From positions 372,001 through 436,000 of the forward strand of contig NZ_SMFX01000001.1 in NCBI RefSeq assembly GCF_004339085.1: a stretch of DNA of 64,000 nucleotides. The letters run 5' to 3'. The stretch is from Thiogranum longum (GTDB lineage: Bacteria > Pseudomonadota > Gammaproteobacteria > DSM-19610). The position numbers and the translations under genes were made by a program. Position 1 is the stretch's first letter. Every line of letters begins with the position of its first letter. Positions 2,934-55,731 of the stretch are shown here, in pieces. Below the pieces are notes generated by a model, which saw only the letters and a list, made by a program, of their open reading frames with translations, did not search any database and was not told the origin of the DNA.

Positions 2934-5900
2934 ATGAATCAGGTAATCGACTTCAGTACACTGACGTGGGTTAAGAACGAGCTGGACGAAACGCTTAAAG
3001 AGGCGCGCCAGTCACTCGAGGCATACGTTGAAGACACGTCGGATGTTGCCCGGCTGGGCTTCCTTTCGGCGCATTTGCACCAGGTCTACGGGACCCTGCA
3101 AATGGTCGAGTTATACGGCGCTGCATTACTGGCAGAGGAGATGGAGCAGGTTGCAGTGGCGCTGGCCGATGGCAAGGTTGCTCAACAGGATGATGCTTGC
3201 AATGTGCTTATGCGTGCAATTCTGCAATTGCCCGATTATCTTGATCGTCTGATTTCAGGTAGCCAGGACATACCTCTGGTGCTGCTGCCGATCCTGAATG
3301 ATTTACGCGCCGTCAGGGGGGCAAACCTGCTTTCCGAAAATGTTATGTTCTCCCCTGATCTGGGTGCAGCATTACCTGGAGATGTTGCGTCTTATACCGT
3401 CGAAGGGGACCTGGTTGCTGATGCCAAACAATTGCGCCATCGGTTCCAGATTGGTCTGCTTGGCTGGTTCCGTGCTGGAGCAAATGAACAGAAGTCGCTG
3501 GATTCCCTGTCCGAGGTGCTTGACAAACTTCATGGTCTGGGTGGCGATGTATCTGTCACACGCCTCTGGTGGATTGCAGCGGGTGTGATCGATGCGGTAC
3601 AGGCAGGCAGCCTTGAAGGCGGTGTGTCAGTAAAGCGCCTTATGGGTCAGGTTGACAGGCAGATCAAACGACTTGTTGATCAGGGCGAAGCTGCACTTGC
3701 GAAAGAACCGGCCACTGATCTTGCTAAAAATCTACTGTTTTATGTTGCGCAGTCCAGCGGGGCCGGTGAGCGCGCCGAGGCCATACAGGCGACCTATCAG
3801 TTACAAGAGCTCCTGCCCGGTGAGGAAGAGATGGCATCCGCCAGGGAGAGTCTGTCTGGCGCAAATACCGATTTGTTCGAAACCGTTGCTGTCGCAGTCA
3901 AGGAAGAGCTGGCGCGTCTGAAAGACCAGCTGGATGTTGCGCTGCGCGGTGGATGTGAAGACTCCGATGCACTTGGTGAAATGGTGCAGACACTGGGTTC
4001 CCTGGGCGATACGTTGGGTATGTTGAGCCTTGGTGAGGCGCGTGCTGCAGTTGTTTCCAAGGTTGACGAAATAAAATCGTACCAGAATGCAGGTGAGGCA
4101 CCGCCGGACACGGTATTGATGGATGCTGCCAGTACTCTGCTGTTTGTCGAGTCCTCTGTTGAGTCCATGGGTTCCGGGCGTGCTATTGACGTATCGGAAG
4201 AAACTGTCGATGAGCACCTGGCGAAGTCTGAATTCAACCAGGTTATGGATGTTGTCCTCCAGGAAGCAATCGCGGATCTTGCGCGTGCCAAGGAAGCGAT
4301 AGTTGGTTTTACCAAGGGTGGTGAGGATGCCGGTGACCTTGGTGAAGTTCCCCAGTGGTTCAACCAGGTCAAGGGTGGGCTGCTGTTACTGGAAGAGACA
4401 CGCGCCGCGTCGATTATTGATGCCGCCGCAAGATATATAGAAGACAAGCTTATCCCCGGTGATGCAGAAGTAGCGACGCAGGAACTGGATTCACTTGCGG
4501 ATGCGATTTGTGGCCTGGAGTATTATCTGGAAAGTCGCCGCGAAAACCGCATGTATGGTCATTCAGCGATGAATGTGGCCGAGAAAGGTGTCGAGACACT
4601 CGGCTACTCTATTCAGGGTGATGAAGCCGGACAGCCGGAGGATAGCCCGGAAGGTCAGGCTGAGTTTAACGATGTGCTGGAACCCTTTGATCCGGATCCG
4701 GGCAGAGAATCGGAAGCAGCCGGAACTGACGATACAATTGAAGATGCCGGGCAGGCGGATATTGACGTCGATGTACAGGCCAGTGATAAAGAAGCTGTTG
4801 CGATTAGCGACTTGCCGGACTTGCCTGATAGGGATGTTGTTGAGCTGCCGGCGGCGGAACAGCGGGAAAATAGTGCTGTAGCTGAAGAAGGTCCTGAAGT
4901 TGCGGAGCACGTTGATGAGTCTGGGCTGTCAGCTGATGAAGAGGTCTCATCAATCGAGGAAGAAGATGATGGCCTCGCCATCATTGGTGACGAGGTCGAT
5001 GAAGAAATCCTGGAGATCTTTATCGAGGAAGCCGAGGAAGAAATCGAGAGTCTCGGTACCCGCCTACCGATGTGGATTCAGAATAATGAAGACCGTGATT
5101 CCCTGGATACGATTCGACGTTCATTCCATACGCTGAAAGGCAGTGGTCGGCTGGTCGGCGCCATGCGTATCGGAGAATTCGCCTGGGCTTACGAGAATAT
5201 GCTTAACCGGGCCATTGACGGGACCATCGAAGTAAATGCTCCGATGACGGATATCCTGGAACGCGCGCTCGATGCACTTGTTGACCTTGCAGGGCAGGTA
5301 AAGAACGGTTCTCCTGTAACCAGGCCCGTTGGTTGGCTGATGAAGGCTGCGGATGCTATCAGTAAGGGAGAGGAACTTCCGATAGCACCGGAACCCCTCG
5401 CTCAGGCCGCAGTACCTGATGTGGAGGTAGATACAACGCCGGAATCAATCACACTGCAAGAGCCCGTGCTGGAAGATGTGGCACCTGAGCTTGTAGAAAC
5501 GGATTATCAGGATCAGGCCGACGAACCGGCTGAACTGGCGGCGGGCGATGACGACCTTATTGTCGACAGTGTAATGGACCCGATGCTGTACGAAATATTC
5601 AACTCGGAATCGCGCGGTCACCTGGAAGTTATTCGCCAATTCCTTTCCAGGGTCGACAATGGCGATTCCTGTATTGATGATACCTTGATACGTGCCCTGC
5701 ATACGCTGCATGGCAGTGCGCACATGGCGGGAAGTGACCCGATTGCAGATCTTTCGGGTGAGCTGGAGCAGTATACCAGGCGGTTGTTCATGGCCCAGGA
5801 AGGTATGCCTGAGCCGGGTTGTGCCGCACTACAGGAAAGTGTGTCGCAGATCCAGAGTATGCTCGACGTACTCCCCGGGGAGCACCGCGCGCCGGAAGGT

Positions 5901-8834
5901 TTTGATGAGATTCTGTCGCGTATCACGGCATTGCGTGAATCTGCACCGTCTGTGCAGGCAGTGGCAGAGCATCCGGAGGACATTCATGAAGCAGAAGCCG
6001 GAATCGACAGTGATGCTGAGCCGGAATCTGTCGGGGAAAGCCGGCTTTACGTTGACATAGACCCGGAGCTGCTGGAAATCTTCCTGGAAGAGAGTGACGA
6101 AAACCTGGAAACAAGTGATGCTGCACTGAACCGGTGGCGTATGGACAGCAATGATCGTGAGGCACTGGCCGAGCTGCAGCGCGCGTTACACACCGTAAAG
6201 GGTGGTGCGCGGATGGCTGACCTTGGTCCGGTAGGTGACCTCGCTCATGCAGTTGAATCCCTGATTATTACTGTTAATGACTGTGGTAGCGGCGAAAACG
6301 AACAGGCTTTGCATGGTGTGCAGAGTGCCCAGGATGCCCTGGTCGGCATGCTTGACGAGGTGCGTGGAAACAGGCCGCTGAGCACGCAGAACGAACTGAT
6401 CGAGGAACTCCAGGCATTGCGCGAAAGCGTGCTGTCCAGGAGTCATGATGATGGAAGCCCGGTAGAAGAACCTGAATCGCCGGCAGAAGAACTCCCGGTT
6501 GCCAATGACCCCTATGCTGAAACAGACCCTGAGCTGCTTGAAGTGTTCCTTGAGGAAGCGGCAGACATACTCGAACACAGTGAAGAGACGCTTCAGAACT
6601 GGAAAGATGATACTGAAAACCGTGAATTAATGGCGGAATTCCAGCGTGAACTGCACACGCTGAAAGGTGGTTCCCGTATGGCGGACATCACTGCCATTGG
6701 TGATATTTCGCACGCTGTGGAGTCGCTTGTAGAGAAAGTTGGTGCCGGAGAGGCTGAGGCGACCCCGCAGGTATTCGGGTTGTTGCAGGAAGTACACGAT
6801 GTGCTGGCTGGCATGGTGGCAGATGTTGCAGAGCACAAGCCGGTTGCCGACACGCCAGAGCTTGTTGCCGAGCTCGAAGCGCTTCGCGAGGGGAGAAAGC
6901 CCGCCAAGCGTAAAAAGCGGAAACCTGCAAAGGTGGAACCTGCTGTACAGCCAATGGTTGTCGAGAAAGATGTTGAGACTGAGGAGCGTCGGGTCCATTC
7001 CAGATCCAGCCAGGAGCTGGTCAGGGTAAAGGCTTCCTTGCTTGATAATCTCGTAAACTATGCCGGTGAGGTGAGTATTTATCGCTCACGTCTCGAGCAA
7101 CAGGTTGGTGCTTACCGCTTCAACCTGGTCGAACTGGAGCAAACAGTTTCGCGTGTGCGCGAACAGTTGCGCAAGCTGGAGATTGAGACCGAGGCGCAGG
7201 TATTGTTCCGCTATGAGCGCGAGGCAGAGGAAAATGACGGTGAGCAGGAGTTCGATCCACTGGAAATGGATCGCTATTCCCATATGCAGCAGCTGTCCCG
7301 CTCTCTTGTGGAAAGTTGCAGCGATCTGGGCAGCTTGCAGGGTCTGCTTGATAACATAACCCGCGAATCAGAAACATTATTGTTACAGCAATCACGGGTT
7401 AATACAGAATTACAGGAAGGGCTGATGCGTACCCGCATGGTGCCGTTCCTCGGGCTTGCGCCACGCATGCGTCGGATCGTTCGCCAGACTTGCCAGGAAC
7501 TGGGCAAGCAGGCAGAGCTGGAACTGTCCGGCGCTGAAGGCGAAATGGACCGTGCAGTGGTTGACCGGATTATTGCGCCAGTGGAACACATGTTGCGTAA
7601 TGCAATATCCCACGGTATCGAGACACCCGAGCAGCGTCTCAAGGCGGGCAAGCCGGAAGCCGGAACGATACGTATTACTTTCGAGCGTGAATCCTCTGAC
7701 GTGGTGCTCAGGATGTCAGACGACGGTGCAGGTATCAGCCTGGACGCAATCCGTGACAAGGCGATTGAGCGTGGGCTGATGGAAAAAAATGCCGTACTAA
7801 GTGATAACGAAGTGCTTCAGTTTATTCTCGAGACCGGCTTCAGTACCGCAGATAAGGTCACGCAGGTTTCCGGGCGTGGTGTCGGTATGGATGTGGTGAA
7901 CAGTGAAGTCAAACAGCTTGGTGGCTCACTGCATATTGATTCCAGGCAGGGTGAAGGTACGACTTTCACTGTCCGTCTGCCCTTTACCCTGGCATTGAAC
8001 CAGGCTTTGCTCATCGAAGTTGGTGAAGATACCTACGCAGTTCCGCTGTCAAGCATTGAGGGTATCGTGCGTATGCGCCGTGAGGATCTGAAAGCTTACT
8101 ACGATGATCCCGAGTCTCGTTTCGAATACGGTGGTTACGAGTACGAAGTACGCCACCTGGGCAGTGTATTGGGAACCGGAGCGCCACACCTGGGCAGCGC
8201 GCAGAAGCGATTACCGGTGCTGCTTGCACGAACCGGTGATCATGGAGTGGCTTTCCATGTCGAGAATCTTCTGGGTAGTCGTGAAATTGTCGTCAAGTCA
8301 GTCGGCCCGCAGATCAGCACAGTTCGGGGCGTGTCCGGTGCAACCATCCTGGGTGACGGGCGTGTGGTCATGATTCTTGATGTGGTTGCCATGTTGCGTA
8401 GTGTCGGGTCTGGCAGTGGTATGATGGAGCAGGTTGAAGAGCTCATGCAACGGCCGGCAGAGCGGCAGGGTGTGACAGTCATGGTTGTCGATGATTCGAT
8501 TACGGTGCGCAAGGTAACCACCCGTCTGCTCGAGCGCAACGATATGAATGTCATATCGGCAAAAGATGGTGTCGATGCCGTTTCCAAGCTACAGGAAAAT
8601 ATCCCTGATATAATGCTGCTCGATATCGAAATGCCACGCATGGATGGTTTTGAGCTTGCAACACATATTCGCAATGAAGCACGCCTGCGCGATATTCCGA
8701 TCATCATGATTACGTCACGTACGGGCGACAAGCATCGCCAGCGCGCCATGCAGATTGGTGTAAATCGCTACCTGGGTAAACCCTTCCAGGAAAGTGACCT
8801 GATGGAAAATATAACGGAATTGCTCGAGGAATAG
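2934..8834 (+). CDS. chpA: Hybrid chemotaxis histidine kinase ChpA (PilL), multi-Hpt CheA-like
   Basis: Central kinase of the Pil-Chp system. ATG at 2934 is chosen because GGAAGGAA precedes it by a normal distance; an upstream in-frame TTG has no such site. The protein is 1966 aa. An N-terminal Hpt-like module contains HLHQVYGTLQM near residue 47. Four clear Hpt modules follow, with histidine motifs HTLKGSGRL (about 731), HTLHGSAHM (about 922), HTVKGGARM (about 1086) and HTLKGGSRM (about 1240), joined by acidic linkers. The ATPase has an N box near 1551 (LRNAISHGIE), DDGAGIS and GRGVGMDVV near 1647. A CheW-like domain covers about 1686-1822. A C-terminal receiver from about 1849 has VVDDS, phospho-site LLDIEMPRMDG and GKPF. 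The layout matches pseudomonad ChpA, apparently with fewer intact Hpt modules. Confidence 0.94.
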   Translation: MNQVIDFSTLTWVKNELDETLKEARQSLEAYVEDTSDVARLGFLSAHLHQVYGTLQMVELYGAALLAEEMEQVAVALADGKVAQQDDACNVLMRAILQLPDYLDRLISGSQDIPLVLLPILNDLRAVRGANLLSENVMFSPDLGAALPGDVASYTVEGDLVADAKQLRHRFQIGLLGWFRAGANEQKSLDSLSEVLDKLHGLGGDVSVTRLWWIAAGVIDAVQAGSLEGGVSVKRLMGQVDRQIKRLVDQGEAALAKEPATDLAKNLLFYVAQSSGAGERAEAIQATYQLQELLPGEEEMASARESLSGANTDLFETVAVAVKEELARLKDQLDVALRGGCEDSDALGEMVQTLGSLGDTLGMLSLGEARAAVVSKVDEIKSYQNAGEAPPDTVLMDAASTLLFVESSVESMGSGRAIDVSEETVDEHLAKSEFNQVMDVVLQEAIADLARAKEAIVGFTKGGEDAGDLGEVPQWFNQVKGGLLLLEETRAASIIDAAARYIEDKLIPGDAEVATQELDSLADAICGLEYYLESRRENRMYGHSAMNVAEKGVETLGYSIQGDEAGQPEDSPEGQAEFNDVLEPFDPDPGRESEAAGTDDTIEDAGQADIDVDVQASDKEAVAISDLPDLPDRDVVELPAAEQRENSAVAEEGPEVAEHVDESGLSADEEVSSIEEEDDGLAIIGDEVDEEILEIFIEEAEEEIESLGTRLPMWIQNNEDRDSLDTIRRSFHTLKGSGRLVGAMRIGEFAWAYENMLNRAIDGTIEVNAPMTDILERALDALVDLAGQVKNGSPVTRPVGWLMKAADAISKGEELPIAPEPLAQAAVPDVEVDTTPESITLQEPVLEDVAPELVETDYQDQADEPAELAAGDDDLIVDSVMDPMLYEIFNSESRGHLEVIRQFLSRVDNGDSCIDDTLIRALHTLHGSAHMAGSDPIADLSGELEQYTRRLFMAQEGMPEPGCAALQESVSQIQSMLDVLPGEHRAPEGFDEILSRITALRESAPSVQAVAEHPEDIHEAEAGIDSDAEPESVGESRLYVDIDPELLEIFLEESDENLETSDAALNRWRMDSNDREALAELQRALHTVKGGARMADLGPVGDLAHAVESLIITVNDCGSGENEQALHGVQSAQDALVGMLDEVRGNRPLSTQNELIEELQALRESVLSRSHDDGSPVEEPESPAEELPVANDPYAETDPELLEVFLEEAADILEHSEETLQNWKDDTENRELMAEFQRELHTLKGGSRMADITAIGDISHAVESLVEKVGAGEAEATPQVFGLLQEVHDVLAGMVADVAEHKPVADTPELVAELEALREGRKPAKRKKRKPAKVEPAVQPMVVEKDVETEERRVHSRSSQELVRVKASLLDNLVNYAGEVSIYRSRLEQQVGAYRFNLVELEQTVSRVREQLRKLEIETEAQVLFRYEREAEENDGEQEFDPLEMDRYSHMQQLSRSLVESCSDLGSLQGLLDNITRESETLLLQQSRVNTELQEGLMRTRMVPFLGLAPRMRRIVRQTCQELGKQAELELSGAEGEMDRAVVDRIIAPVEHMLRNAISHGIETPEQRLKAGKPEAGTIRITFERESSDVVLRMSDDGAGISLDAIRDKAIERGLMEKNAVLSDNEVLQFILETGFSTADKVTQVSGRGVGMDVVNSEVKQLGGSLHIDSRQGEGTTFTVRLPFTLALNQALLIEVGEDTYAVPLSSIEGIVRMRREDLKAYYDDPESRFEYGGYEYEVRHLGSVLGTGAPHLGSAQKRLPVLLARTGDHGVAFHVENLLGSREIVVKSVGPQISTVRGVSGATILGDGRVVMILDVVAMLRSVGSGSGMMEQVEELMQRPAERQGVTVMVVDDSITVRKVTTRLLERNDMNVISAKDGVDAVSKLQENIPDIMLLDIEMPRMDGFELATHIRNEARLRDIPIIMITSRTGDKHRQRAMQIGVNRYLGKPFQESDLMENITELLEE

Positions 8835-46847: not shown

Positions 46848-47525
46848 ATGTCATACATACTCGAGGCACTGAAGAAGGCGGAACACGATCGCGAGATCGG
46901 GCAGGTGCCGCGCATCGACAGTGAACACGAGCCAGCGAGCTCTGGTTTGTCACCACGCTGGGTGATAGTTGTGGTGCTGGTTTTGCTTATTAATGCCGGT
47001 CTGCTGCTGGTGCTGTTCTGGCCAGAAGAGCCTTCCAGTCCACCACCGCAAGCTGCCGGGCCTGCGCCAGCGTTACAAGCGACCGTAACACCGGTGACCA
47101 GGCCAGAGAATCGTAACGACAGGGTTGTTGATCGTGCGTTGACGGTGGCCCCTCCTGCGGCTGCTGTTCAGCCACCGGTTGCGGTTGAGCTGCCCACGGT
47201 CGAGCCGCCAGTGCGGGCCGCTGAAGTCCCCGTCGTACCCCGGCAGCCTGTCGTTGCAGCCACAACCCGGCCTTCCTCAGGGCAATTCGGTAATCTGCCG
47301 GTCTGGCCCCAGGTGCCGGACTATATTCTGCAAAAACTGAACCGTGGCCTGCGATTGGATGTCCACGTGTACAGTGAAAGGCCGGAGGATCGGTTTGTGC
47401 TGGTCAATCTGCAAAAATACCGGGAAGGCGACCAATTACAGGAAGGGCCACTGTTGGACGCCATAACACCTGATGGCATCGTGTTGTCATTGCAGGGTGA
47501 CAGGTTCCTGGTTCGTGCACAGTAG
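46848..47525 (+). CDS. gspB: GspB/ExeB-type secretion accessory protein
   Basis: Partner of GspA. Length is 225 aa. The N-terminus MSYILEALKKAEHDREIG is the diagnostic GspB start. A membrane helix covers about residues 38-58 (VIVVVLVLLINAGLLLVLFW), followed by a Pro-rich periplasmic linker and a small C-terminal domain (PQVPDYILQKLNRGLRLDV, FVLVNLQKYREGDQLQEGP). It ends 25 bp before the subtilase gene, suggesting a link between this secretion pair and the protease. Confidence 0.92.
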   Translation: MSYILEALKKAEHDREIGQVPRIDSEHEPASSGLSPRWVIVVVLVLLINAGLLLVLFWPEEPSSPPPQAAGPAPALQATVTPVTRPENRNDRVVDRALTVAPPAAAVQPPVAVELPTVEPPVRAAEVPVVPRQPVVAATTRPSSGQFGNLPVWPQVPDYILQKLNRGLRLDVHVYSERPEDRFVLVNLQKYREGDQLQEGPLLDAITPDGIVLSLQGDRFLVRAQ

Positions 47526-47550
47526 GATCACATTCAGGCAGTCAAAATCA

Positions 47551-49104
47551 ATGTTCAGAAAATTTCTTCTGTCGTGCCTGGCAGGCAGCTTAAGTCTTGC
47601 CGGGCTATCTGTTCAGGCGCAAAGGCACATTTCACATGTTTCCGCCGAGCGGCTGATTATCAAGCTGCAGGATAGCGGTGTGCGTAAAAGCGCCTCAGCC
47701 GGCTCCAGCGAGGCTGTTCCGGACCTGAGTCTTCCTGATGGACGGAAGCTCACATATGTACGTTCCATGAGCGATGGAAGCCTTGTCGTGCGGTTACCTG
47801 AAGGGGTCAGCTCCGAAGAAGCGCATGCACTGGTTTCGCAGCTGACGCAGGAGCCTGCGGTGCTGGCAGCGCAGGTGGACAAGCGCCTTTATCCAGCCCT
47901 GGTGCCAAATGATACTCAGTATGTAAATCAGTGGCATTTGTCGGAGGACACGGCCGGCATGCGCATGCCGGCTGCCTGGGATCTGAGTACCGGTTCTTCC
48001 GGTGTCGTGATTGCCGTCGTAGATAGCGGTATTTTGTCGCACATCGATCTGGATGCGGCCCGCATTTTACCCGGCTATGATTTTATCAGTGATATTCCGA
48101 CGGCCAATGACGGTGATGGCCGGGATGCCGACCCGACTGACCCGGGCGATGCCGTTCTGGCCAATGAGTGCGATGTGGGTGAGCCGCCAACTGATGAGCC
48201 GAGTTCCTGGCACGGATTGTCAGTTGTGGGGGTAATGGCTGCGACATCCGATAATAGTAACGATGTCGCGGGAATGGATTTTGCTGCCAGGATTCTTCCT
48301 GTGAGGGTGCTGGGCAAGTGTGGTGGATTTGTATCGGACATCATCGATGCAATTCGCTGGTCGGCCGGACTTTCTGTAGCGGGCGTGCCGGATAATCCCA
48401 CCCCGGCAAAAGTCATTAATCTCAGTCTGGCGGGAGACGGCGCCTGTTCGGCGCAGGAGCAGTCAGCAATCAATGACGCTGTTGCTGCCGGGTCCGTCGT
48501 GATTGTGGCGGCGGGCAATGAGGGTATGGACGTAGCCAACTTCAGTCCCGCCAATTGCGCCAATGTTGTGACTGTAGGCGCGGTGGCGCGCGATGGAAGT
48601 ATTGCTTCCTACACGAATCGGGGTGAGGAAGTGGACCTGGTGGGACCGGGTGGAGACGGTCCGGACCCGATGGGCAGGGACGATGTGTTGACGTTGTGGA
48701 ATCTAGGTACCACAACAGCGGGCGCTGATACGCTGGCCTTTATACAGGGAACCAGTTTCACCGCCGCTGAGGTATCGGCTGTAGCTGCCCTGATGCTATC
48801 TGTGAACGGAACGCTCGATCCCGACACAGTGCGCGATATCCTGCGTGCCACGGCGCGCAGCTTCCCGGATTCCAGTTGTAACGCCAATCGGTGTGGGCAG
48901 GGTCTTGTGGATGCCGGCGCTGCCCTGGCGGGTGCGGCAGACCCTGCGTCTGTTGTTAGTGGTTCGACAATTGGCAGCAGCAACGGCGGCGGTGGCGGCG
49001 GCGGTGGTGGTTGTGTTGCGTTGCGGGTGGCAGATCGCACCGATCCGTTACTGGTCTGGCTTGCTGCGGCCGCAATAATTGGTTTGAGGCGGCGTAACCG
49101 CTAG
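47551..49104 (+). CDS. Subtilisin-like (S8) protease with C-terminal sorting-type tail
   Basis: Exported serine protease of 517 aa. Signal peptide: LLSCLAGSLSLAGLSVQA. A propeptide of about 90 residues precedes the catalytic domain. The triad is Asp in AVVDSGILSHID near 158, His in SSWHGLSVVGVMAA near 221 and Ser in GTSFTAAEVSAVAAL near 402; both latter motifs depart slightly from HGTxVAG and GTSMAAPH. The C-terminus has a run of Gly, one Cys (GGGGGCVALRVADRTDP), a short hydrophobic helix (LLVWLAAAAIIG) and RRRNR. This resembles GlyGly-CTERM or JDVT-CTERM sorting signals. Location after gspAB suggests type II secretion followed by surface anchoring. Confidence 0.9.
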   Translation: MFRKFLLSCLAGSLSLAGLSVQAQRHISHVSAERLIIKLQDSGVRKSASAGSSEAVPDLSLPDGRKLTYVRSMSDGSLVVRLPEGVSSEEAHALVSQLTQEPAVLAAQVDKRLYPALVPNDTQYVNQWHLSEDTAGMRMPAAWDLSTGSSGVVIAVVDSGILSHIDLDAARILPGYDFISDIPTANDGDGRDADPTDPGDAVLANECDVGEPPTDEPSSWHGLSVVGVMAATSDNSNDVAGMDFAARILPVRVLGKCGGFVSDIIDAIRWSAGLSVAGVPDNPTPAKVINLSLAGDGACSAQEQSAINDAVAAGSVVIVAAGNEGMDVANFSPANCANVVTVGAVARDGSIASYTNRGEEVDLVGPGGDGPDPMGRDDVLTLWNLGTTTAGADTLAFIQGTSFTAAEVSAVAALMLSVNGTLDPDTVRDILRATARSFPDSSCNANRCGQGLVDAGAALAGAADPASVVSGSTIGSSNGGGGGGGGGCVALRVADRTDPLLVWLAAAAIIGLRRRNR

Positions 49105-49113
49105 ACTACCAAT

Positions 49114-49566
49114 ATGTTACGGGCAATTCAGGATTTCTTCAGGGGGCGCATCGATCCCGGCACGGCCGGCGGGCATGACGAGCATAGCCTGCACCTGGCT
49201 ACTGCCGCATTACTGTTTGAGGTGCAGCGTGCCGATTTCGAAGAGCACGACGACGAGCGCAAGGTGCTGGAGCGTGTGTTGCAGGAGACTTTTGCGCTGA
49301 GCAAGGAAGAAACCCGGGAACTGGCCCGACTTGCACAATGTGAATCCGAAGATTCCGTATCACTTCACCAGTTTACTCACATAATCAACCAGCGCTTTTC
49401 ACCCGAGGAGAAAGTGCGAGTGGTCGAGATGTTGTGGCAGGTTGCTTTCGCTGACGGGCGTATAGATCGTTACGAGGAGGCGCTGGTGCGCAAGATTTCC
49501 GAACTGATTTATGTCCCGCACAGGGCGTATATCCAGGCTCGCCACCGGGCACAGGACGCGCAATAA
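49114..49566 (+). CDS. TerB-like protein
   Basis: Soluble protein of 150 aa with the TerB/DjlA N-terminal-type helical fold: LATAALLFEVQRADFEEHDDE, FSPEEKVRVVEMLWQVAFADG and RIDRYEEALVRKISELI. The acidic triplets can bind metal. It follows the protease by 9 bp with no ribosome site between the two that stands out. The function of solo TerB proteins is unclear; no tellurite operon is seen. Ends at a bidirectional terminator. Confidence 0.87.
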   Translation: MLRAIQDFFRGRIDPGTAGGHDEHSLHLATAALLFEVQRADFEEHDDERKVLERVLQETFALSKEETRELARLAQCESEDSVSLHQFTHIINQRFSPEEKVRVVEMLWQVAFADGRIDRYEEALVRKISELIYVPHRAYIQARHRAQDAQ

Positions 49567-50650: not shown

Positions 50651-50797
50651 ATGGCGGGCTATGGTACCAGTCTTCTTGGGTGAAGCAATGCACCTGAATT
50701 TGTGAGCAATTTCACGATTTTAAGACAGTGGTTCAGGCTAAGTTTTCGATGTTTTGTGCCGATAGCAGGGGGTGCGCAGCGCATACCTCGCAGGCGA

Positions 50798-53700
50798 ATG
50801 AAAAAGTACGTTCCGGATACCGGCAAACTCTATCGACAGGATGACAGGCAGACCATGGGAGCGGTAAAAAAACTCTTGGACAAGAAGGCGTTAAAGGATC
50901 TGGTGCCGCTCAATGCATTATCTGCAGTTCATCTTGACGAAATTTCCCGAAAAGCCGGAATTGAAACGGTACGCTCCGGGCGCTATGTGTTCAAGGCAGG
51001 TGAACGCGATCAGAAATCCGTTTACCTGCTGGAGGGCAAGATAGAGCTGGTCGATGAGGGTCGCAATGTCGTTGCTACAATCACAGGCGGTTCCGAAGCA
51101 GCGCATCATCCGCTGGCGCATAAACAGCCTCGCCAGTTATCTGCCCGTGCGTCGGGTGCAGTGACGGTCGCGCGCATTGATTCGGGACTGCTCGACGTAT
51201 TGCTGACCTGGGACGAATCATCCGGCTACGATGTCGTTGAGATCGGCGCAGATGATGATGGCGACTGGATGACGCGTATGTTGCAGTCGCAGGCATTTCT
51301 CCAGCTTCCGCCGTCAAATATTCACCAACTGTTGATGCGCCTTGAGTCGGTCAGTTTTCGGGCCGGCGACCTGGTCATCAGGCAGGATGAGGATGGTGAT
51401 TACTTCTACATCGTCAAATCCGGTCGGATGGCGGTGAGTCGAAAAGCCTCGGCACGTGGCAAGGAAGTGTTGCTGGCAGAGCTGGGGGAAGGTGCCTGTT
51501 TCGGAGAGGAGGCACTGGTTTCCGACTCGCACCGTAACGCAACAGTGACCATGCTCACAGACGGTTCTTTGATGCGACTTTCCAAAGACGATTTCGATGA
51601 ACTGCTGCGCGCACCGCTGGTGCATGAAGTGGATTTTGCGCAGGCCGGACAACTCGCCGGGCAGGGTGCCGAGTGGCTCGATGTGCGTTTGCCGGGTGAG
51701 TTTGATAATCAACATGTCAGGAGTAGTCGGAATTTCCCCTTGTCGGCACTAAGAGACCAGGCGGACAGTCTGGATGCTGACAAACGCTACATTGTCTGCT
51801 GCGACACAGGTCGCCGTAGCGCTTCGGGTGCATTTATTCTGAGGCAGCGGGGCTTCAGTGTATACACGCTGAAAAATGGACTGATGGATGTTCCGGTCGA
51901 GGAACTGGAGGGAGCTTCCACCCCGTTGCAGGAGGATACGGCCAGTCACGACGCAGACATTATCCCTTTCGAAAATGAAAGGGATGCAGAGGGACGTACA
52001 AGCGCAGAGTCGTGCCAGGATGCTGAAACTGTCTCTCCTCTCGAGGTGGAGCTTCAAGACAGCCTGGCGGCACGCGAAATATTGCAGGCTGAAGCTGAAA
52101 CCTTGCGTGAGCAGGTTGAATCGTTACAGGACTCACTGAAAGAAACAGAAAAAAAATACGGTGAACTGAACCGGCAGCTGGAGGAAGTGCAACAGGCCCG
52201 CGAATCCGGCAAAGGGGTGAATGAAAAGTTTGAAAAACAACTGGCGCAGCTGGAAGTTGAGCTGGAGCGTGTACGCGAAGACTATCAGCAGCTGGGGCAG
52301 CGCACCAGCGCGGTTGCCGGTGAGCGGGACGCGGCTAACCGTGAGCTGGAAAAAATGCGCAGTGAGCTGGAAGCATTGCAGGCCCGGGTGGATAGTCAGC
52401 AGGGTGAGCTCAGTGAACAGGTTCAGGTAGTCCAGGCGCAGCTGGATGCAAAGAGCCAGGTACTGGAGGAAGAAGCGGACAGGCGTAGTGTGCTTGAAAC
52501 AGCGCTTGCCGGGGCGGAAAAAGCCACGCGCCTGGCTGAAGAGCGGGAAACCGGTCTTCTTGAGCAGATCGAAACACTGAAGCAGCAGGCCAGTGAGCAG
52601 AGTGAGCAGCTACAGGAAACATTTCAGGCGGAAAAAGCGGAGCTTGAACAGCAGCAGCAGGTGCTGCAGCACAGTATCGAAGACTACCAACAAAAACTGG
52701 TGGCCCAGACAGGGGAACATGAATCACTTGCCGGAAAACTGGCGGATGTTGAGCAACAGCTCACGCAGTCTCAGGTAAACGAGCAGGCTCTGAATGTGTC
52801 ACTGGAGAGTGCCCGGCAAGAGGCCGATGGGGCAGAGCAGCGTATTCGTGCGCAGCTGCAACAGGAGCTCGACACTCTTGGCGAGTCACTCGACAGCACA
52901 AAAAATGCTTTTGATGAGGCCAGCAGCCAGCTCGAGGAAAGTGCCAAACGTGAGGAGCAGCTGAGTGGTCGTATTTCCGAGCTTGAGAAGCAGCTTGCGT
53001 CCAGTGAGCGTGATTTCGAATCTGATCTGGGTAGCGCACGTGAGGCAATGTCCCGGGCGCAAACCGAGGTGGACAACCTCAAACGCGAGCAGCAGCGTTT
53101 ACTCGATCGTCTGCGCAAAAACGAAGAGACCCGTGAACGTGAACGTCAGGACCATGGGGCCGAGGTCCACCGGTTACACAAGGAATTAAAACAGGCTGCA
53201 GATGGTTCGGCTGAAGGGCTGGCAGCCGAGCTGGAGGCATTGCAGGCGCAGGTTAATGAAAGTGCTCGATTGCGCGATGATCTTGAGGTCAGTCTTGGAG
53301 AGCGTAGTGCCCAGCTGGAAGATAGCCAGGCACGTGTCGAGCATTTTGAGCAGCAACTGAAGCTGGCCCGGCAGAGCGCCCAGGCTGCCGAGCAGCAGCT
53401 GGTCGAGGCCAATCGCCTGGCCAATGATGAAATGGAAATTCGTCTTGGCACTGAACAGGGTATACAGGATGGGTTGCGCGAAGCCCTTGAAGCCTCGGAA
53501 AGAGAACGCAATACCCATCAGGAGACCATCACGGTTATTAACCAGGAGCTGGAGGAGCTGCGTGATGCTTACCAGCAGTCGAAGCAGGTTCTGGAAAGTA
53601 ACGAAGACGCTGTTACCCGGCTGGCTGACCTGGAAGTACAGCTGGATGCTGTCGGATCAGAACGTGATGAGCTGAAATCATCAGTCGATGTGTTGAAGAA

Positions 53701-55312
53701 TGAACTCGACCAGTTGAGAGCAGAAGCCGAAGTACATCGTGGCCTGGAGGGTATGCTGTCTGATGAAGGTGGTGATTGTGAGGAAAACGAAGCTTTGCAG
53801 CAGGCCAAACAGAATGTCGAGGTAGCTGTACGCCTGCGTGCCCAGGCGGAAGAACAATGTGAAAGTCTGCGCGAGGAAGTCGAACAACTCAAAACCCGGT
53901 TGAGCCAGGCAGTCGCGGCATCTGAGCCCGCCATGCTGGATGGTGCGATCCCGTCACTGGATAACAGCGACCCCCAGGCTTCGAATCCCATGTTACTGAA
54001 TGTGCCTGAATTCGAAGAGGACGATGTTCTTGCGCCGGCGGTATTGCTGGACGAAGAACTGGCGAGTGCGCAACCACATACTGCCGCAGTGCCAAAATCA
54101 GGTCTGGTCAAAGGGTTGATGGTCGGTCTGGTTATCGGTGTCGTGGCAGGAGCCGGGTTGTTCTGGTGGCAGTCAGATGCAGGGACGTCGGCTGCCGCTC
54201 AATCCGGAGCTGTAAATCGCCAGCTTGTTGCACCGGAACCGGCCGTTGACCAGGAAGCCGGAGATCATTTGACCAGTAAAGTGACCGCCGAAGTGAAGCA
54301 ACGCTTGCCGGAAGCGCCCGTGGTTTCAGAAAAAGTTGGTGCAGCGGCAGAAAAGCCTGCCCCGTCTGTCTCTGCGGCCAGGTCTTTTCCGCTTGCGCGT
54401 GGCATGTCTGATCTGCCACGCGGCGCATCAACATCGACGGAAGATACTGCAACCCGCCAGCATCCTTCTTCTGGCGAGAGGGTGAAAAAAGCAGGGCAGG
54501 CCAGCGAAGACATAACTTCCATGACATCACGCCCGGATGCGGGTGAAACGGCGGAGCCGCTTGTGCAACCTGCGGTTGAGCAACCGGCAGGACGTTTCCG
54601 GGATCGTCTGGGTGATGGCTCACCAGGTCCGCTGATGGTGCGCTTGCGTGCGGATCACTTTTTGATGGGAAGCAGCGCTATTTCCCAGCAGTTTGATGAA
54701 CGCCCACAGCATGAAGTCAGACTTGCGCCGTTTTCGATTGCAGCCCACGAAGTGACATTTAATGACTATGACACTTTTGCGCGCACAACAGGCCGCCGGT
54801 TGCCTGGTGACAAGGGCTGGGGGCGTGGTGACCGCCCTGTGATAAATGTCAGCTGGGAGGATGCAAAGGCCTATGCGCAATGGTTATCTGCACAAACCGG
54901 CAAGTCTTATCGTCTGCCGAGCGAGGCTGAATGGGAATTTGTGGCGCGTTCAGGTTCGTCCACACGCTACTGGTGGGGTGAAGACGTTGGTAAAAACCAT
55001 GCCAACTGCTTTGATTGTGGCAGTACGGATAGCGGGATACAGACCTCGCTGGTGGCCAGTTATGCGGCAAGCCCCTGGGGTGTGAGTGACATGGCCGGCA
55101 ATGTGCGCGAGTGGGTAGCGGATTGCTACACACCGAACTATAGTCGTGCACCGATTGATGGTCGAGTTGTTGAAACGGGTGGCTGTGCCGGGCGTGTTGT
55201 GCGCGGTGGAGCATATAGCAGTCCTTCAGCCCAGCTTCGCAGTGCGGCGCGTGACCGGATGGATGTACAAAGTCAACTGGATAACCTTGGCTTTCGCGTA
55301 GTGCGCGAATAA
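50798..55312 (+). CDS. cNMP-cNMP-rhodanese-coiled coil-TM-FGE domain fusion protein
   Basis: Very large protein, 1504 aa from ATG 50798 (MKKYVPDTGK); GTG 50702 and ATG 50855 are other possible starts. Order: two cyclic-nucleotide-binding domains (about 25-135 and 163-271, the second with GEGACFGEEALVSDSHRN); a rhodanese domain (about 289-367) with an active-loop IVCCDTGRRSASG; a coiled coil of about 620 residues (411-1034); one membrane helix (LVKGLMVGLVIGVVAGAGLF, near 1102-1124); a low-complexity linker; and a C-terminal formylglycine-generating-enzyme-like domain (RLPSEAEWEFVARSGSS, GVSDMAGNVREWVAD, FRVVR). Topology from flanking charges is N-in, C-periplasmic. Function is unknown: it could transmit an intracellular second-messenger or sulfur-state signal across the membrane. 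Confidence 0.85.
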   Translation: MKKYVPDTGKLYRQDDRQTMGAVKKLLDKKALKDLVPLNALSAVHLDEISRKAGIETVRSGRYVFKAGERDQKSVYLLEGKIELVDEGRNVVATITGGSEAAHHPLAHKQPRQLSARASGAVTVARIDSGLLDVLLTWDESSGYDVVEIGADDDGDWMTRMLQSQAFLQLPPSNIHQLLMRLESVSFRAGDLVIRQDEDGDYFYIVKSGRMAVSRKASARGKEVLLAELGEGACFGEEALVSDSHRNATVTMLTDGSLMRLSKDDFDELLRAPLVHEVDFAQAGQLAGQGAEWLDVRLPGEFDNQHVRSSRNFPLSALRDQADSLDADKRYIVCCDTGRRSASGAFILRQRGFSVYTLKNGLMDVPVEELEGASTPLQEDTASHDADIIPFENERDAEGRTSAESCQDAETVSPLEVELQDSLAAREILQAEAETLREQVESLQDSLKETEKKYGELNRQLEEVQQARESGKGVNEKFEKQLAQLEVELERVREDYQQLGQRTSAVAGERDAANRELEKMRSELEALQARVDSQQGELSEQVQVVQAQLDAKSQVLEEEADRRSVLETALAGAEKATRLAEERETGLLEQIETLKQQASEQSEQLQETFQAEKAELEQQQQVLQHSIEDYQQKLVAQTGEHESLAGKLADVEQQLTQSQVNEQALNVSLESARQEADGAEQRIRAQLQQELDTLGESLDSTKNAFDEASSQLEESAKREEQLSGRISELEKQLASSERDFESDLGSAREAMSRAQTEVDNLKREQQRLLDRLRKNEETRERERQDHGAEVHRLHKELKQAADGSAEGLAAELEALQAQVNESARLRDDLEVSLGERSAQLEDSQARVEHFEQQLKLARQSAQAAEQQLVEANRLANDEMEIRLGTEQGIQDGLREALEASERERNTHQETITVINQELEELRDAYQQSKQVLESNEDAVTRLADLEVQLDAVGSERDELKSSVDVLKNELDQLRAEAEVHRGLEGMLSDEGGDCEENEALQQAKQNVEVAVRLRAQAEEQCESLREEVEQLKTRLSQAVAASEPAMLDGAIPSLDNSDPQASNPMLLNVPEFEEDDVLAPAVLLDEELASAQPHTAAVPKSGLVKGLMVGLVIGVVAGAGLFWWQSDAGTSAAAQSGAVNRQLVAPEPAVDQEAGDHLTSKVTAEVKQRLPEAPVVSEKVGAAAEKPAPSVSAARSFPLARGMSDLPRGASTSTEDTATRQHPSSGERVKKAGQASEDITSMTSRPDAGETAEPLVQPAVEQPAGRFRDRLGDGSPGPLMVRLRADHFLMGSSAISQQFDERPQHEVRLAPFSIAAHEVTFNDYDTFARTTGRRLPGDKGWGRGDRPVINVSWEDAKAYAQWLSAQTGKSYRLPSEAEWEFVARSGSSTRYWWGEDVGKNHANCFDCGSTDSGIQTSLVASYAASPWGVSDMAGNVREWVADCYTPNYSRAPIDGRVVETGGCAGRVVRGGAYSSPSAQLRSAARDRMDVQSQLDNLGFRVVRE

Positions 55313-55377: not shown

Positions 55378-55731
55378 ATGGTGAATTGGCTGAAAATTTG
55401 TGATTTGTCAGCGCTACCCGAAGATAGCAGCCGTGGGTTTTGTATTTCAACCTCGGCTGGATTGGCGGATATCTTCCTGGTACGTAAATCCGGAGAAGTT
55501 CGCGGCTATCTCAACCAGTGCCCGCACACGGGCGGCCCGCTCGACTGGGTGCCGGATCAGTTTCTGGATCTGGATCGTCGCTTGATCCAGTGTGCGACAC
55601 ACGACGCCCTGTTTCGTATTGATGATGGAGTATGTGTGGCCGGACCCTGCGCAGGACAATCGCTGGTAGCAATTGATCTCAAGCAGGAAGGTAATGATGT
55701 CTGTATGAGGGATGTTGTTTCTGAAAAATAA
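55378..55731 (+). CDS. Rieske-type [2Fe-2S] protein
   Basis: Small soluble Rieske protein of 117 aa. Cluster ligands are in NQCPHTGGPLDWVPDQF (Cys-x-His near residue 48) and LIQCATHDALFRIDDG (Cys-x-x-His near 72). C-terminal GPCAGQSLVAIDL is typical of the small ferredoxin-type Rieske family. No signal peptide or Tat motif, so cytoplasmic. Lies 65 bp after the giant fusion gene, and might share its transcript. A terminator overlaps its stop. Confidence 0.92.
   Translation: MVNWLKICDLSALPEDSSRGFCISTSAGLADIFLVRKSGEVRGYLNQCPHTGGPLDWVPDQFLDLDRRLIQCATHDALFRIDDGVCVAGPCAGQSLVAIDLKQEGNDVCMRDVVSEK

Follow-up and report, generated by a model that had tools for sequence, protein, structure and literature searches.

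A recurrent gammaproteobacterial protein fusing a cyclic-nucleotide-binding and rhodanese head, a coiled-coil rod and one membrane helix to an FGE-like domain

Gene and domain layout

The stretch of DNA analysed here (the window, 64,000 nucleotides of the Thiogranum longum genome) carries an open frame of 1536 aa on the + strand, running from a GTG through to position 55312 without an internal stop (50702..55312 in the open-frame list). The first-pass annotation had placed the start of this gene at 50798, which is residue 33 of the frame; the ATG at 50855 is the likelier start, because several relatives begin to align at residue 52 and because the matches that reach into residues 1-51 contain stops (in G016, G003 and G017, with the positions of the stops within the match not given). 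The probable translated part, as judged from the alignments of relatives, thus covers 50855-55312 and amounts to about 1485 aa; residue numbers below refer to the 1536-aa frame. Pfam finds PF00027 in two stretches (E 1e-29), PF00581 at residues 321-395 (E 5e-11) and PF03781 at residues 1310-1535 (E 1.5e-51), and the same scan finds neither a kinase nor a DNA-binding domain. Together with periodicity and hydropathy, these matches agree with the layout first proposed for the locus, in which a single long frame encodes two cyclic-nucleotide-binding domains, then a rhodanese, a rod, one helix and an FGE-like domain, FGE being the formylglycine-generating enzyme. Promoter and terminator scans returned chance numbers only.

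The head: two cyclic-nucleotide-binding domains and a rhodanese

The canonical cassette of cyclic-nucleotide-binding domains (CNBD) is a phosphate-binding Gly-Glu ... Arg motif. The second domain, CNBD2 (51311..51610, + strand; best PF00027 stretch, residues 217-303), has it in the form FGEEAL.....RNATV, with Glu269 present in 86 and Arg278 in 94 of the 96 rows of the head alignment, and with both residues in all 39 full-length rows. The first domain, CNBD1 (50855..51310, boundary approximate; second PF00027 stretch), departs from it: Glu does not exceed 29 of the 96 rows in any column of residues 126-145. CNBD1 has a conserved cassette of its own, of the type HPLAxxQPRQ, in which Pro143 is kept in 92/96 rows and Arg144 in 81/96. 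Of the two domains originally read here, CNBD2 has a canonical cassette and CNBD1 a variant one. CNBD2 is a predicted cyclic-nucleotide site; its base preference is not legible from the sequence, and it may bind c-di-GMP or no ligand.

The rhodanese follows at 51662..51886 (residues 321-395). A Cys within a six-residue CxxGxR loop is the mark of the rhodanese sulfurtransferases, and the loop C367-D-T-G-R-R372 has this size and pattern. Its Cys, Gly and Arg are found in 87, 90 and 78 of the 96 head rows; the Cys is present in 38 of the 39 full-length rows (the exception is L111) and is also missing in eight relatives that lack the FGE-like domain. The intact loop had been noticed at the outset with its Cys near residue 334; the loop holds, and the position is corrected to 335 in the frame then used, or 367 in the 1536-aa frame. 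An AlphaFold model of the whole head (m80fa67901221) has a mean pLDDT of 84.6, and Foldseek ranks PKA/PKG-type regulatory domains first for it. The TM-scores over the whole head are low (0.27-0.32 in the rows shown), and the assignments in the head were therefore made domain by domain only.

A stand-alone paralogue of the head, about 30% identical, occurs at eight loci (L065-L072; for example L072:8668-10666, - strand). It retains the rhodanese Cys, and its cassette Glu is replaced by Cys in 8/8. A metallo-beta-lactamase-fold protein adjoins it in 7/8 loci; the nearest model of the one such metallo-hydrolase that was scanned is the Blh sulfur transferase/dioxygenase, below the cut-off.

Rod, helix and topology

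Behind the head lies a coiled-coil rod (52022..53911, residues 441-1070, bounds set by eye) with a single proline in 630 residues. The residues L/I/V/M/F recur in it with a period of 3.5 at a power of 0.85 versus 0.17 +/- 0.04, and 0 of 2000 shuffles reached as high a value. A single transmembrane helix follows at about residues 1135-1153 (54104..54160), with a mean hydropathy of 2.12, one Lys/Arg on its N-terminal side and none on the other. In 40 full-length genes, L025 not being among them, the most hydrophobic 19 residues between the rod and the FGE-like domain have a mean hydropathy of 1.55-2.84, with 37 of the genes reaching 1.6 and three below it; the test takes the best stretch by construction and has no control. 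The helix is followed by a linker rich in Ala (17%), Ser (12%) and Pro (9%), at about residues 1154-1290 (54161..54571), which probably lies outside the inner membrane. In the same 40 genes the span from head to helix (rod plus linker) varies from 367 to 1295 residues, and the gap from helix to FGE-like domain from 52 to 159.

Lys/Arg are in excess on the N-terminal side of the helix in 34/40 genes, equal on both sides in five, and in excess on the opposite side in one (L107). From this charge bias and from the cysteine pattern of the FGE-like domain (below) we infer the topology: both favour an N-in/C-out protein, its head in the cytoplasm and its FGE-like domain in the periplasm, which is also the orientation put forward in the first-pass annotation.

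The FGE-like domain

The frame ends in a domain of the PF03781 family (54572..55309) that is FGE-like or, more closely, PvdO-like. We aligned it in 42 rows, consisting of 39 uncut giants, the contig-cut halves L074 and L075, and L024, whose status as a giant is not established. Four cysteines (1436, 1439, 1475 and 1495, the first two as CxxC) are invariant in 42/42 rows and are accompanied by no others in 41/42, a pattern that fits an oxidising compartment; in all, 32 columns are invariant. A true FGE has a copper-binding Cys pair near its C-terminus. In the alignment to 6muj and 2q17, none of the 42 rows has a Cys in the stretch of the copper cysteines, and because this catalytic pair is missing throughout we reject formylglycine-generating activity: the name first given to the domain is kept for its fold and dropped as an enzyme label.

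The AlphaFold model of the domain has a mean pLDDT of 95.6, and Foldseek places PvdO (5hha) first with a TM-score of 0.88. The domain falls well short of membership in the PvdO family (NCBIfam NF051459, 144 bits versus a cut-off of 500), and likewise in the sulfoxide synthase families EgtB (59.6 versus 360), OvoA (33.1 versus 400) and SenA (46.9 versus 420).

Related FGE-like modules are found in other settings: behind a PP2C phosphatase and a helix (L136 and L137 by Pfam, L138 by eye), behind another coiled coil and helix (L133, by eye), and near a hydrophobic, signal-peptide-like N-terminal start (L134, L135 and L140, by eye). In a quick tree of 50 rows the PP2C, L133 and L134/L135 rows are interspersed with the domains of the giants, for the most part on branches that do not reach the starred level of support; L139, L140 and L024 are left unresolved near the base. 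The proteins of L136, L137 and L138 represent another transmembrane signalling design that shares the same periplasmic-type module.

Distribution and phylogeny

The head and the FGE-like domain occur together in one frame at 41 loci, the window included, under 17 family labels of the window's class; the loci were chosen by open-frame length and match rank and not at random, so that 41 is not a frequency. The frames range from 1216 aa (L035, with an incomplete head) to 1984 aa, and some of the full-length loci lie in single-contig genomes (for example G140 and G150). The genome of the window is itself a single contig of 2.92 Mb, and its best named matches are Thiohalobacter MAGs. All genomes are species representatives, many of them drafts, and the family labels stand for taxa. 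Since L020 duplicates L025 and L021 duplicates L012, the loci L020, L021 and L012 were left out of the counts; L025 is among the 41 and stands outside the alignments as well as the hydropathy test, L035 is in neither alignment, and the head alignment excludes L130 (at a contig end) and L078.

Some match to the protein was found in 51 of 56 genomes, a count that includes genomes in which the FGE-like domain alone matched. In the class sample the head module is present in 172 of 369 genomes, and among the matches listed many frames are of about 340-430 aa, that is, heads alone. In the phylum sample 32 of 398 genomes match, and the only frame above 1000 aa is the window's own, which speaks against the giant form being common beyond the class sample. 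Besides the full form, the head module is found by itself, joined to a soluble rod, or joined to a rod and helix that are followed by no recognised domain. In 12 variants without the FGE-like domain, the C-terminal part gave no named Pfam match, weak coiled-coil-type matches below the cut-offs being ignored; a piece of L113 scanned with them had no match either. At L112 the FGE-like part and the head-rod-helix part are encoded in two adjacent frames (L112:3056-3646 and 3701-8629, - strand), which may reflect a genuine split or a mistake in the draft assembly.

Maximum-likelihood analysis of 96 heads gives a clade of 39 rows with a support of 99/97, made up of 32 full genes and seven that are cut by contig ends, so that all 32 uncut genes of this clade have the full architecture; a quick tree agrees. 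The label 'full' takes 11 changes on the 96-head tree versus a shuffled mean of 30.5, the contig-cut rows inflating the 11. Seven further full rows sit in small groups elsewhere, so the tree does not show that the full form arose only once.

Gene neighbourhood

A Rieske-type [2Fe-2S] protein (55378..55731, + strand; PF00355) begins 65 bases past the stop of the giant gene. Within 3 kb downstream and on the same strand, the 41 full-length genes are followed by a PfkB-type kinase in 19 cases and by a Rieske protein in 23, with both in 13, either in 29, and neither in 12. The 29 genes span 11 family labels, no case being found in six labels, and they include L113, where the kinase match has only 27% identity. 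Among 49 uncut relatives without the FGE-like domain, just two (L061 and L124) have a kinase or Rieske gene behind them, as against 29/41; this set leaves out two contig-cut genes and the split L112 but includes L078, whose 255-aa frame covers part of a head. The Fisher value for this contrast overstates the independence of the data, because the sequences are related and the set was chosen by hand. The one kinase that was scanned, L038:11424-12329, has solved ketohexokinases as its best relatives (E 3e-65). Its cluster comprises bacterial PfkB-type kinases near the giant at 22 loci. With the L038 kinase, from genome G001, as query, no ketohexokinase-like kinase was found at E 1e-5 in the window's own genome, in a search that had no positive control.

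Upstream, a gene for a TerB-domain protein (49114..49566, + strand; PF05099) is a conserved neighbour, present within 3 kb of 26 of the 41 full-length genes under eight family labels; the four other TerB-bearing loci are contig-cut relatives in the giant clade. Within the window's own family, part of the conserved gene order is ordinary synteny. Also upstream in the window are a gene with a T2SSB domain and one for an ATPase that carries a peptidoglycan-binding domain; neither reaches the NCBIfam cut-offs. Next to the giant we recognised no sulfur gene.

Two further observations concern the surroundings of these genes. At 47473-49104 (+ strand) the window encodes an S8-type protease that has a run of glycines, a cysteine and, towards its C-terminus, a hydrophobic stretch closed by basic residues; by eye this resembles a C-terminal sorting tail. 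The protease gene lies near a T2SSB-domain gene and an ATPase match of XrtA/PEP-CTERM type that is below the cut-off. Elsewhere, the giants of L123, L125 and L127, which have the transmembrane helix and lack the FGE-like domain, follow clusters of TonB/AgmX-like and ExbD-like genes (families confirmed for L127 only), which suggests a link to an energised envelope machine in this lineage.

cAMP supply

Cyclases were sought as PF00211, PF01295 and PF01928. The genome of the window gave no match to PF00211, and the conclusion that it has no cyclase was overturned by a match to PF01295, the class I adenylate cyclase, which is present in 23 of 24 selected genomes, the window's included (the exception, G008, is 82% complete). 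The search with PF01928 gave one CYTH match. Given this class I enzyme, the giant could plausibly have cAMP as its ligand. Nine frames of the same genome carry cyclic-nucleotide domains, and one of them, about 10 kb downstream of the giant, is a Crp-type regulator by eye.

Proposed function and alternatives

The reading that we place first, tentatively and at somewhat less than even chances, is that of a membrane-anchored, cAMP-responsive signalling scaffold with a periplasmic binding domain. The giant would sit N-in/C-out in the inner membrane and self-associate through its rod; with a helix rise of 0.1485 nm per residue, the 630 residues would extend over about 94 nm if they formed one straight helix. 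CNBD2 would bind cyclic AMP from the class I cyclase, and this would change the conformation or the partners of the head, whose rhodanese would carry or receive a persulfide. The head may act with its operon partners, the Rieske protein and, in many relatives, the ketohexokinase-like kinase, and the periplasmic domain would bind an envelope ligand or partner rather than make formylglycine. The first-pass annotation had left the choice between a transmembrane sensor of a second messenger or of sulfur and a scaffold. The conserved CNBD2 pocket, the helix with its charge bias and the class I cyclase speak for a second-messenger sensor or scaffold; for a sulfur sensor there is the conserved CxxGxR loop, and against it the want of a recognised sulfur gene next to the giant. 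We rank the scaffold above a PvdO-like enzyme, a structural landmark and a sulfur relay, which are weighed below.

A broader claim, possible and in our opinion rather doubtful, is that the family is a widespread, undescribed and non-transcriptional cAMP effector, a receptor-scaffold that spans the membrane. Its tandem CNBD head, similar to PKA-R, would gate a rhodanese at the tip of a rod of ~90 nm; the rod would connect across the inner membrane to a periplasmic sensor of PvdO type, and the protein would work with an operon dedicated to it, of the ketohexokinase-like/Rieske kind. If the cAMP reading is right, cAMP in Gammaproteobacteria would act directly on the membrane and envelope as well as through Crp-type transcription, and would be tied to persulfide chemistry and to an unexplained family of periplasmic domains. 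An apparently unstudied protein of 1.3-2 kresidues that is conserved across many families is a good target, with its operon partners as handles.

The FGE-like domain might instead be an oxidase like PvdO that works in the periplasm, is positioned and regulated by the cytoplasmic head and is tied to the Rieske protein and the kinase. PvdO is its nearest solved structure and family (the NCBIfam name is dihydropyoverdine dehydrogenase), the fold is modelled at a pLDDT of 95.6 with 32 invariant columns in 42 rows, and a Rieske gene stands behind 23/41 full-length genes. We nonetheless consider this unlikely: the score of 144 is far under the cut-off of 500, the copper cysteines of FGE are absent from 42/42 rows, the Rieske and kinase proteins, if cytoplasmic, lie across the membrane from the domain, and the same fold appears in the Foldseek list as the PorK ring protein of the T9SS, which has a structural role.

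To a similar degree improbable is a structural role like that of PodJ, as a landmark for polarity or the envelope, in which the rod and the periplasmic anchor are the function and the sensor domains are modulatory or a relic. Landmarks of the PodJ type are marked by polar localisation and a role as organiser, and the giant may resemble them. The free variation of the rod and linker length (367-1295 residues) would agree with such a role, as would the T2SSB-domain gene and the peptidoglycan-binding-domain ATPase upstream in the window and the relatives that keep the rod without helix or FGE-like domain. The nucleotide cassette and the rhodanese Cys are, however, strongly conserved, which is not expected of relics.

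Less probable again is a cytoplasmic sulfur relay, in which cAMP regulates a persulfide-carrying rhodanese and the rod and anchor merely tether it. The CxxGxR loop is of sulfurtransferase size and its Cys is kept in 87/96 rows, and the stand-alone paralogue has a metallo-hydrolase beside it in 7/8 loci, one of these being nearest Blh, below the cut-off. The cassette of that paralogue is changed, though (Glu to Cys in 8/8), and the giant itself has no recognised sulfur gene beside it. Finally, two genes joined by a sequencing or assembly error, or a lone chimera or oddity, can practically be dismissed: the separate FGE frame of L112 tells us that split versions occur in drafts, but the full architecture recurs at 41 loci, some of them in single-contig genomes.

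Comparison with known systems

The first-pass annotation had allowed that the architecture might prove to be common and already characterised; it is common in the window's class, and among openly licensed papers we found none that describes it. The rhodanese survey of Burroughs and Aravind (2023), outside that set, may mention fusions of the head type, and passages of PMC12604733 (unrelated gene lists) and PMC12419801 do not contain the architecture.

The nearest structural relative of the C-terminal domain, PvdO of Pseudomonas aeruginosa (5hha), has an FGE-type fold that matches it along its full length (TM 0.88, 36% identity, by Foldseek). The cysteines of PvdO align with the later two of the giant (DC...C), whereas the CxxC pair of the giant faces a Cys-free stretch; and the solved chain of PvdO has neither rod, helix nor cyclic-nucleotide head. 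FGE/SUMF1 (2q17, 6muj and 1y1e) has the fold in common with the giant at TM-scores of 0.74-0.79 in the rows shown, but possesses two copper-binding cysteines that the giant's family lacks in 42/42 rows. The PP2C-TM-FGE proteins (L136 and L137) and the coiled-coil-TM-FGE protein (L133) likewise combine a domain of cytoplasmic type with a single hydrophobic stretch and an FGE-like domain that is 47-50% identical to the giant's and has four Cys, their helix and coiled coil being assigned by eye; unlike the giant, they have no cyclic-nucleotide or rhodanese domain.

On the side of the head, the giant resembles the PKA/PKG and Crp-type proteins in its two tandem domains and in the CNBD2 cassette FGEEAL.....RNATV, and differs from them in its fusion partners, a rhodanese and a rod anchored in the membrane, with no kinase or DNA-binding domain found on it. 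The family 2 encapsulins (PMC8346489) offer a parallel in their variant 2B, where a cNMP domain is fused to an assembly-forming protein, and in variant 2A, which has a cysteine desulfurase as cargo and rhodaneses in the operon. In contrast to the giant, they form an HK97-fold shell without a membrane anchor or FGE domain, and in the passages of PMC8346489 no one variant unites the two features, the cNMP domain being that of 2B and the sulfur cargo that of 2A. Each part of the giant is of a known kind, and it is their combination, its stability and its neighbours that, against the openly licensed papers searched, appear to be new.
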